From Gemmatimonadota bacterium (lineage in GTDB: Bacteria > Gemmatimonadota > Gemmatimonadetes > Gemmatimonadales > Gemmatimonadaceae), in assembly GCA_014192065.1 (NCBI GenBank), contig BJHH01000002.1, forward strand, positions 248,001-312,000: a stretch of DNA of 64,000 nt, written 5' to 3'. Positions 22,112 through 26,235 of the stretch are shown in pieces. Every line of letters begins with the position of its first letter. Position 1 is the stretch's first letter. Made by a program: the position numbers and the translations under genes. The notes beneath the pieces are model-generated. The model did no database searches, was not told the origin of the DNA, and was given only the letters and a program-made list of their open reading frames with translations.

Positions 22112-22139
22112 TTGCTACGAAACGCTTTTTCCATATACT
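22112..22139 (+). promoter_or_regulatory. Predicted promoter of the phasin/H1-like gene
   Basis: TTGCTA (22112-22117), 16-nt spacer, TATACT (22134-22139): four and five matches to the sigma-70 consensus. Transcription would begin near 22146, leaving a leader of about 115 nt with no evident reading frame. It lies in an A/T-rich divergent region shared with the CoA-transferase gene. Confidence 0.6.
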
Positions 22140-22261
22140 TGGCGCGTCCACCTCGTGCTCGCATTAATCGTCCGCCGAATTTCGGCCATGGGACACCATC
22201 GCACGACTCGACGCGCCGCCCACTGACGACGGCGCACTGCCCGACCACGGAGCACGCTCGA

Positions 22262-22753
22262 ATGCCCGAAAAGACACCACCAGTTGTTCGTCCATCAGCA
22301 CCAGCCGCTGCCACCACCACGACGCTGCCGGTTCGCCGGCACCCTGGCCACCGCGGCGTTGATGTCCGCGACACGGTCGCCGAGATGGCGGCCAAGGCGC
22401 AGGAAATCAGCATGGAAGCTGGCAGCAAGATGGCAGCTGCCATGAAAGATGTCATCGGCGCAGCCGCCGGCATCAGCGGCTTCTCGATCGAAAGCGCGCG
22501 CGACCTCGTGCAGTTCATGGTCCGCCGCAGCCAGATGACGCAGGATGAGGCCGACAAGCTCATCGTTGTCGCCGAGGCCGCGACGTCAAAGAATCGCCGT
22601 GGCAAGAAGCCCGACGCCTCGGCCAAGTCTTCGGCGAAGAAGCCGGTCGCGAAGAAGCCGGTCGCGAAGAAGCCGGTCGCGAAGAAGCCGGTCGCGAAGA
22701 AGCCGGTCGCGAAGAAGCCGGTCGCGAAGAAGAAAGCGGCACCAAAGAAGTAG
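22262..22753 (+). CDS. Phasin/histone H1-like protein with AKKPV repeats
   Basis: 163-residue protein with two parts. The N-terminal part (about 30-105) is a helical, Ala/Met-rich segment ending SQMTQDEADKLIVVAEAA, which resembles phasin-like helical proteins. The C-terminal part (about 110-163) is a strongly basic tail with six identical AKKPV units followed by AKKKAAPKK. This is like histone H1 or PhaF tails that bind DNA. A PHA-granule/nucleoid linker or a chromatin-like protein are both possible; no PHA genes are nearby to decide. The ATG at 22262 marks the start of the conserved-looking frame; codons upstream of it are not convincing. Confidence 0.75.
   Translation: MPEKTPPVVRPSAPAAATTTTLPVRRHPGHRGVDVRDTVAEMAAKAQEISMEAGSKMAAAMKDVIGAAAGISGFSIESARDLVQFMVRRSQMTQDEADKLIVVAEAATSKNRRGKKPDASAKSSAKKPVAKKPVAKKPVAKKPVAKKPVAKKPVAKKKAAPKK
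22636..22725 (+). repeat. Six perfect 15-bp tandem repeats (AKKPV coding)
   Basis: The unit GAAGAAGCCGGTCGC occurs six times in a row with no base differences, even at synonymous positions. Each unit adds one AKKPV pentapeptide without changing frame. Perfect identity points to recent expansion or continuing homogenisation. Confidence 0.95.
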
Positions 22754-23961: not shown

Positions 23962-24180
23962 ATGACGCAGCTCACCGTAAAACAGTACGACGCCCTAGAA
24001 GACGCGATCCGTGATGGCCGGCGCGTCATCGTGGGACGGCAGCACCAGCAGGTCACGGTGATCCCGGAGCGACTCGTCATCCGCAACCGCCGCGAAGCGA
24101 TCGAGGCGCGCCATCCGACGACCGGCGACCGAATGGTGATCTGGATTGACGACGCCGATTCGCTCGAGGTGGTGCGATGA
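23962..24180 (+). CDS. Small conserved-looking protein coupled to RNase H-like gene
   Basis: 72-residue soluble protein rich in Arg and Val with no recognised domain. It looks like a small beta-barrel or SH3-like fold (VIVGRQHQQVTVIPERLVIR, then MVIWIDDADSLEVV), but that is impression only. Its stop overlaps the next start as ATGA, so translation of the RNase H-like gene is likely coupled to it. It lies 32 bp after the M20 gene. Confidence 0.7.
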   Translation: MTQLTVKQYDALEDAIRDGRRVIVGRQHQQVTVIPERLVIRNRREAIEARHPTTGDRMVIWIDDADSLEVVR

Positions 24181-24806
24181 GTCGCGTCATGGCGCGCGAA
24201 CTGATCGCGATCTACGCCGACGAGTCCTGTCTGGGCAACGGACGTGAAGGCGAAAACCCCGGCGGCGCCGGTGCGCTCGTCGAATACCGCCGTGCCGGGT
24301 CGGACGAAATCGTGCGCCGCGATCTCTGGCTCAGCGAACGCGGCTCCACGAACAACCGGATGGCGCTGCGCTCAGTCACTGCATCGCTCGACGAACTCGG
24401 CGTGAAGGGGGCGACGTTCAACATCCTGTTCACGACCGACTCGCGGTACATCGTCGATGGTATGACTGACTGGGTGCACGGGTGGGCACGGCGCGGGTGG
24501 ACGCGCAAAAGTGGCGCGATCGAGAATCTTGGGCTGTGGGCCGACGCGATTGCCGCGGCCCGCGCGCACGTGGTGCAGTGGCAATGGGTACGCGGGCATA
24601 ACGGCCACGCGCAGAACGAGTACGCCAATCATCTCGCCACACGCGCGGCCGCCGACCAGACGCAGTCGGGCGGGCTCGTGCCATCGGGGTTCGAGGCGTG
24701 GGACGCTGCGGCTCGGGCACGGGGTGCCAAGCACGCGCCGCCATCGGCGTTTCTCGACGTCGCGAACTTTCGGCCGCACGCCGAGCTTCCCGAACCCCCC
24801 GAGTAA
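24177..24806 (+). CDS. Divergent RNase HI-family protein
   Basis: 209-residue RNase H-fold protein. It keeps the first catalytic Asp (Asp15 in YADESCLGNG), the TNNRM segment, Asp88 in TTDSRYIVDGM, and the His in WVRGHNGHAQNEYAN. Against E. coli RNase HI, Glu48 corresponds to Ala63 (TNNRMALRS) and Asp134 to Asn151 (NEYANHLA). Two of four metal-binding carboxylates are thus missing, so classical activity is uncertain. The C-terminal 45 residues extend beyond the fold and are Ala/Pro-rich. It is translationally coupled to the 72-residue gene upstream. Confidence 0.85.
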   Translation: MSRVMARELIAIYADESCLGNGREGENPGGAGALVEYRRAGSDEIVRRDLWLSERGSTNNRMALRSVTASLDELGVKGATFNILFTTDSRYIVDGMTDWVHGWARRGWTRKSGAIENLGLWADAIAAARAHVVQWQWVRGHNGHAQNEYANHLATRAAADQTQSGGLVPSGFEAWDAAARARGAKHAPPSAFLDVANFRPHAELPEPPE

Positions 24807-25004: not shown

Positions 25005-25178
25005 GTGGCTGACCGCCTCCCGACACCGCCGCCCTCGCCGATCGGGCGGGCCTTGCCCGCGGTGGCGATCTCGGTCATGCGGAATCAATACCGCACGCTG
25101 CTCAATCGGGCACAGGTCTCACTCGAACAGGCGCTCGACCGCCTCGAATACGGCGACGAACCGCGGCGCCTTGCCTGA
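25005..25178 (+). CDS. Possible 57-residue mini-ORF coupled to squalene synthase
   Basis: GTG-started frame placed 2 bp after the previous mini-ORF. Its TGA is followed one base later by the ATG of the synthase (TGAGATG). The product has a Pro-rich start (LPTPPPSPIGR), then a helical segment (VMRNQYRTLLNRAQVSLEQ), and an acidic/basic end. No family is recognised. The tight spacing is the main evidence for translation. Confidence 0.5.
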   Translation: MADRLPTPPPSPIGRALPAVAISVMRNQYRTLLNRAQVSLEQALDRLEYGDEPRRLA

Positions 25179-25179
25179 G

Positions 25180-26235
25180 ATGGCGCCCCCACTCGGGCGC
25201 AGCCTGGACGACGCCGAGCGGTGGGCGCGCGCGCGATTGCCTGCGGTCTCGCGCACCTTTGCGTTGTCGATCCGTTTTCTCCCGGGCACGCTCGGGCGGG
25301 CGGTCATGACGGCGTATCTCCTCTGCCGCATCGCCGACACTATCGAGGACGACGGTGCGATGCCGGCCGCGCGAAAGGCCGAGTTATTCGACGCATTCCG
25401 CCGTGCCCTCGATGCCGAAGCGGCAGCCGACGCATTCCCTGCGCTCGCGAGTGACATCACGGGCGACCGCGCACACGTCGAGTTGCTCCTGCACACCGAC
25501 CTCGTCTGCCGGCTGCTCCGATCCCTCCCCGTGCGCACCCAGGAACGGGTGGTGCATTGGGTGGTCGAAATGGTCACCGGGATGCACAAGTTCGTCGTGC
25601 TCTACCCGCATGGCATCCGCATCCAGACGCTCGCCGAGTACCGTGAGTATTGCTACTACGTGGCGGGAACCGTCGGATGCCTGCTCACCGAACTCTGGCG
25701 CGAGCACTCGCCGCACATCGGCGAACGGGAGTACCCGGGGCTGTGGGAACGCTGCCAGAAGTTCGGCGAAGCACTGCAGACGGTGAACATCCTTAAGGAC
25801 ATCGCCTGGGACGCCGAGCACGAAAATGCGATCTACATCCCCGCCAGCACGCTCGCCGAACACGGCAGCGGCCACGCCACCCTGCTCGGCTCAGCGCACC
25901 TGGAAGGAAACAAGGCGGCTGTGGCCTCGTTCATCGAGCTGGCCTGGCAGGACCTAGACGAGGCACTCGAATACCTGTACCGTGTGCCTCGCAGGGCGCT
26001 CGCCATTCGTGCCTTCTGCGTCCTCCCCCTGCTCTACGCCTACGCCACCCTTCGGGACCTCTCGGCGTCGCGGTCGATGCTGAAGGCGGGAGGGTCCGTG
26101 AAGATCTCGCGCGGCGAGGTCCGGTCGCTGATGATCGTTGGGCTCAGTGTGATGTGGAGCAACCGGCTGCTGCGATCGCTGGTCAGGCGCGTCAAGCAAC
26201 GTCCGTTCAACCCGATTGCCCTGTCCGCCGGATAA
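25180..26235 (+). CDS. Squalene/phytoene synthase family protein
   Basis: 351-residue all-helical prenyl synthase that condenses two prenyl diphosphates head to head. The first Asp-rich motif is ADTIEDD (near 48-54) and the second region is QTVNILKDIAWD (near 203-214), both Mg-diphosphate-binding. The C-terminal FCVLPLLYAYATL resembles squalene synthases more than phytoene synthases, and a final hydrophobic/basic stretch may dock it to the membrane. No other hopanoid or carotenoid genes are seen nearby. The ATG at 25180 directly follows the mini-ORF stop; a TTG at 25171 is the alternative. Confidence 0.87.
   Translation: MAPPLGRSLDDAERWARARLPAVSRTFALSIRFLPGTLGRAVMTAYLLCRIADTIEDDGAMPAARKAELFDAFRRALDAEAAADAFPALASDITGDRAHVELLLHTDLVCRLLRSLPVRTQERVVHWVVEMVTGMHKFVVLYPHGIRIQTLAEYREYCYYVAGTVGCLLTELWREHSPHIGEREYPGLWERCQKFGEALQTVNILKDIAWDAEHENAIYIPASTLAEHGSGHATLLGSAHLEGNKAAVASFIELAWQDLDEALEYLYRVPRRALAIRAFCVLPLLYAYATLRDLSASRSMLKAGGSVKISRGEVRSLMIVGLSVMWSNRLLRSLVRRVKQRPFNPIALSAG

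Follow-up and report, generated by a model that had tools for sequence, protein, structure and literature searches.

The window analysed here, a 64,000-nucleotide stretch of Gemmatimonadota DNA, encodes a ribonuclease HI-like protein of 209 residues that a first-pass annotation had described as lacking two catalytic carboxylates. The locus therefore raises the question of whether this protein is still a nuclease, and with which residues, or whether it binds RNA:DNA hybrids and leaves them uncut. The features that bear on the question are as follows.

23962-24180, + strand: gene for a 72-residue partner, a predicted lone Sm-like/WYL-like domain (open reading frame; model; profile searches)
24177-24806, + strand: rnhA-like gene for a 209-residue RNase H1 with a relocated glutamate, LC9 or DEDN type (open reading frame; Pfam, PDB and fold matches)
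24219-24224, + strand: codons of Asp15 and Glu16, the first aspartate and the relocated glutamate (counted from 24177; alignment columns)
24363-24365, + strand: codon of Ala63, at the E. coli Glu48 site (counted from 24177; alignments)
24438-24440, + strand: codon of Asp88, at the E. coli Asp70 site (counted from 24177; alignments)
24597-24599, + strand: codon of His141, at the E. coli His124 site (counted from 24177; alignments)
24627-24629, + strand: codon of Asn151, at the E. coli Asp134 site (counted from 24177; alignments)

Active-site residues of the 209-residue protein

Alignment to E. coli RNase HI confirmed that Ala63 and Asn151 stand where the E. coli enzyme has Glu48 and Asp134, and that the equivalents of Asp10, Asp70 and His124 are kept, as Asp15, Asp88 and His141 (residue numbers by counting in the window protein). 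The same alignment places Glu16, directly after Asp15, at the site of E. coli Gly11. Because Glu16 follows Asp15, the site is one catalytic carboxylate short, not two; Asn151 does remove one. The two substitutions listed by the first-pass annotation thus stand, but the two-acid deficit does not: with Glu16, realignment does put another acid into the site, the outcome that the annotation itself had named as refuting its reading.

The protein has a single Pfam match, a full RNase_H domain (PF00075, E = 8.9e-29, residues 10-158), and scores 121.4 bits against the NCBIfam ribonuclease HI equivalog model, below its cut-off of 160 bits. With Ala63 for Glu48 and Asn151 for Asp134, it falls outside classic RNase HI (DEDD). 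The top PDB sequence match is 4IBN, LC9-RNase H1 (E = 1e-82, residues 8-205), which is also the top fold match of the predicted model (Foldseek 1.6e-26, 64% identity), with Z 30.8 and an rmsd of 1.9 over 204 residues, the next entry reaching Z 19.7. This model, metal-free and made from a 15-sequence alignment, has a mean pLDDT of 92.0 and places Glu16 inside strand 9-18. By both fold and sequence (Pfam, PDB sequence match, Foldseek and Z) the protein is a type 1 RNase H, and it has the marks of the LC9 type (DEDN), namely a glutamate after the first aspartate, a helix position without glutamate and asparagine as the fourth residue. The PDB title of 4IBN is 'a type 1 RNase H with the type 2 active-site motif', and the reference list of PMC4423430 gives the title of the LC9 paper with the words 'atypical DEDN active site motif' (Nguyen et al. 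2013, FEBS Lett. 587:1418) and there calls LC9-RNase H1 metagenome-derived. Membership of RNase HII was rejected, as the protein matches PF00075 only and the one PF01351 gene of the window genome lies elsewhere.

Compared with the close relative L004 over 203 codons, the gene differs 32, 31 and 101 times at codon positions 1, 2 and 3. Differences are thus about threefold more frequent at third positions than at either of the other two, which points to purifying selection on the gene.

Exchange of the glutamate among relatives

RNase H loci were gathered across the Gemmatimonadota phylum and gave 172 distinct alignment rows, E. coli and LC9 among them, of which 171 were readable at the Gly11 and Glu48 columns. 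Identical copies (35 of 205 sequences) were dropped before the exchange was counted, and L032 and L100, read on the wrong strand, were left out of the working alignment A2; L235 and L236 had no domain match, six rows were short, and L226 and L234 were cut at one end. Of the 171 rows, 160 combine glutamate at the Gly11 site with alanine at the Glu48 site and 11 combine Gly11 with Glu48, while mixed combinations occurred in none. Asp15, Glu16, Ala63 and Asp88 are invariant in 159 of 159 distinct relatives, rows selected for Glu16 and Ala63, which fixes two of the four. Because these four residues are unchanged in relatives and third codon positions differ in excess, the alanine and asparagine substitutions are, judged from alignment and codons, neither chance nor decay.

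The first-pass annotation had proposed conservation of the alanine and the asparagine as a check. In these 159 rows (LC9 not counted) the Asp134 site varies, with asparagine in 135 rows, aspartate in 22 and histidine in one, and is cut off in one. The histidine belongs to L216, the single relocated-glutamate RNase H1 seen with this residue. On a tree built with the Asp134-site column masked (quick search, SH-aLRT only), a minimum of 11 changes between asparagine and aspartate is needed, at least six of them forced by starred branches. Since the exchange at the glutamate is strict whereas asparagine and aspartate change repeatedly on the tree, the relocated glutamate is, on this sequence comparison, the fixed trait and asparagine at the Asp134 site a secondary, changing one. 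As a separate trait that changes repeatedly, asparagine for Asp134 provides natural pairs for testing the role of the fourth carboxylate.

The gene is the one PF00075 match in the window genome, which is 97.75% complete. Searches found relatives of the protein in 191 of the 199 related genomes and a PF00075 match in 376 of the 395 genomes sampled from the phylum; residues were read in the fetched loci only. Among named-genome relatives, the best 80 of 420 carry titles of Gemmatimonadota or of its subgroups, with the exception of L122, titled only 'bacterium'. In the Gemmatimonadota loci that were read, RNase H1 usually takes the relocated-glutamate form. In L073, L074 and L075 (genomes G324, G306 and G271) the sole PF00075 match is of the classic kind, with Gly11 and Glu48; it looks as though this form had taken the place of the usual gene. 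We also considered mobile elements as a setting for the gene and rejected them: the 14 pattern matches in viral contigs included one relative (L183), with classic residues, and relatives in plasmid and phage records (715 and 507) all fell below 60% identity, the comparison there being by identity alone.

The 72-residue partner gene

The coupling to a 72-residue partner gene noted at first pass is borne out, as the open reading frame exists and its stop codon and the start codon of the RNase H gene overlap in an ATGA at 24177-24180. A search detected the partner in 43 of 61 relatives, and a 51-member profile detected it in 127 of the 295 genomes from the class; redundancy reduction for this profile left 74 of 103 sequences, of which 51 were aligned, the window copy standing for L001. 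The partner gene is upstream of the RNase H gene, on its strand, in 56/56 f1 loci, 33/33 named Gemmatimonadaceae loci, 46/48 other named-record or viral loci (exceptions L172 and the viral contig L183) and 9/16 f2 loci, counts that are not independent, many genomes having been fetched twice, the window genome included (L001, L003). It adjoins the RNase H gene in 0/5 f3, 0/1 f4 and 0/23 f5 loci, and it is not beside it in 10/10 f6 loci read. In eight f2 loci chosen for separated matches, L202 among them, both genes lie within the fetched 3.5-5 kb. A start codon falls within -10 to +3 of the partner stop in 112 of the 130 loci that have both genes, a permissive range counted without a chance control.

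Several neighbours were recorded alongside. L172 is the sole named Gemmatimonadota locus in which no partner was found; upstream it has an Ala/Lys-rich tail protein resembling the product of the window's open reading frame at 22112-22753, which ends in about six head-to-tail VAKKP copies in a Lys/Ala/Pro-rich tail. In the f6 locus L193, a co-directional gene beside the partner has no Pfam match, and DsbA-like and Peptidase C26 genes flank the site, which gives no clue to function. Downstream of the window RNase H gene, on the same strand, lies a squalene/phytoene synthase gene (25171-26235; SQS_PSY, E = 5.6e-52), and between the two is a 57-residue open reading frame without a Pfam match (25005-25178).

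The predicted partner model (pLDDT 89.6) has an N-terminal helix and a five-strand small barrel, and its fold is of the WYL/Sm-like kind (CapW, Z 10.1; Hfq, Z 9.8; best Foldseek E 2.6e-4). The likeness extends to the WYL domains of CapW, DriD and BrxR and to Hfq at Z of about 9-10; unlike WYL and Hfq/Sm-like proteins, however, the partner is a stand-alone protein of 72 residues. The window copy has no Pfam match of its own, WYL included, and Pfam WYL matches among the partner members are weak (11/51, best E 0.0069). A curated WYL protein and Hfq were both rejected as identities, neither the WYL model nor PF17209 having a match in the window genome. Among PDB sequences, the partner profile best matched Rof (YaeO), the inhibitor of Rho, over the full length but weakly (E 0.18-0.19), and Rof has a similar fold (8w8d, Foldseek 8.8e-3); Pfam ROF matches 3/51 members (best E 0.0072), and none of the partner-Rof sequence matches is significant. 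A comparison of the partner with the RNase H for relatedness was negative. A role of the partner in nucleic-acid binding is plausible, and it is the sole part of the locus that could be undescribed.

Whether the RNase H depends on this partner as a subunit that binds hybrids or activates the enzyme, which would make the pair the functional unit, can be weighed from the arrangement of the genes. The partner is the same-strand upstream neighbour in 135/136 loci of f1 or named genome records (a count that takes in genomes fetched twice), yet the RNase H occurs without an adjacent partner in the f3, f4 and f5 loci, the f6 partners lie apart from it, and a Usp gene stands between the two in the f2 locus L202. 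The ATGA overlap in the window and the predicted Sm-like/WYL-like fold, which is seen with nucleic acid in the PDB (Hfq-RNA, DriD-ssDNA), fit such a unit; E. coli RNase HI acts alone. We consider the dependence unlikely. It is similarly doubtful that, across the Gemmatimonadaceae, the partner would be a detached Sm/WYL-fold nucleic-acid-binding subunit made jointly with an LC9-type RNase H1, serving as a hybrid-binding or regulatory domain or in a Rof-like coupling to Rho. The conserved small-barrel neighbour is a modest lead, and the only one that the locus offers.

Catalysis and comparison with known RNases H

The first-pass annotation had proposed, as its second option, a hybrid-binding, non-cleaving protein; such a relative of RNase H would protect or sense hybrids. 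The equivalents of Glu48 and Asp134 are both substituted, at the same two sites as in the E. coli active-site mutant structure 1wsg (E48A/D134N with Mn2+), but Glu16 replaces Glu48 in a strict exchange across relatives, and the PDB entry 4IBN describes an RNase H that has the type 2 motif. In addition, the search of the genome turned up no second RNase HI gene, so that an inactive copy of this sole RNase HI-type gene would leave RNase HII alone. On the strict Glu16/Ala63 exchange and 4IBN we set the non-cleaving protein aside as highly improbable. We are instead confident, from sequence and predicted fold, that the gene encodes a catalytically competent, metal-dependent RNase H1 of the LC9 type; metal binding and hybrid cleavage are what we infer from these together with conservation. 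The original observation was correct and its implication largely mistaken: the protein is the orthologue of an RNase H1 of known variety and is very probably active. The suggestion of a distinct subfamily with altered chemistry was right in outline, and that subfamily was already known (LC9-RNase H1, 4IBN). A false lead is thereby closed: the lost carboxylate is replaced directly after the first aspartate, in an arrangement already solved in LC9-RNase H1.

In the proposed arrangement, the Asp10-Glu48-Asp70-Asp134 site would be rebuilt as Asp15-Glu16-Asp88-Asn151 plus His141, with the glutamate supplied by the first strand, adjoining the first aspartate as in RNase HII, instead of by the first helix. 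The divalent metal would most likely be held by Asp15, Glu16 and Asp88, with Asn151 and His141 most likely near the attacking water. In excerpts of PMC8900815, the ligands of E. coli metal A are Asp10, Asp134 and the Gly11 carbonyl, and those of metal B are Asp10 and Glu48. Since the Gly11 carbonyl binds metal A in E. coli, a glutamate at the Gly11 site would be well placed, near the metals. Ordinary RNase HI acts in the cell on R-loops and primer remnants, and the cell role of the 209-residue protein would match this.

The window protein shares with RNase HII (type 2) the adjacent Asp-Glu that starts the site, and the RNase HII of the window genome itself starts AGVDEVGRG, with such a pair; unlike RNase HII, the window protein matches type 1 in its whole sequence and fold. 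With E. coli RNase HI (type 1, DEDD) it shares the fold (Z up to 19.7), Asp10, Asp70 and His124, whereas Gly11 is replaced by Glu16, Glu48 by Ala63 and Asp134 by Asn151, and its C-terminus is longer than that of the E. coli enzyme. The Asp-Glu type is already known from one crystal structure, that of LC9-RNase H1, which agrees with the window protein in the Asp-Glu pair, the alanine, the asparagine and the C-terminal extension, at 64% identity over nearly the whole length. The 2013 LC9 paper reportedly describes an enzyme with RNase H1-like activity and is said to place a second glutamate beside the first aspartate as in RNase HII, supported by mutants. On the tree, LC9 groups inside the Gemmatimonadota family of the window genome, with its best identity (84%) to L030 and a smallest starred set of 4 rows at 99; most likely, therefore, LC9 came from a bacterium belonging to this family, called Gemmatimonadaceae after the titles of the nearest named relatives. 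The window protein and LC9-RNase H1 are orthologues from different lineages of one family.
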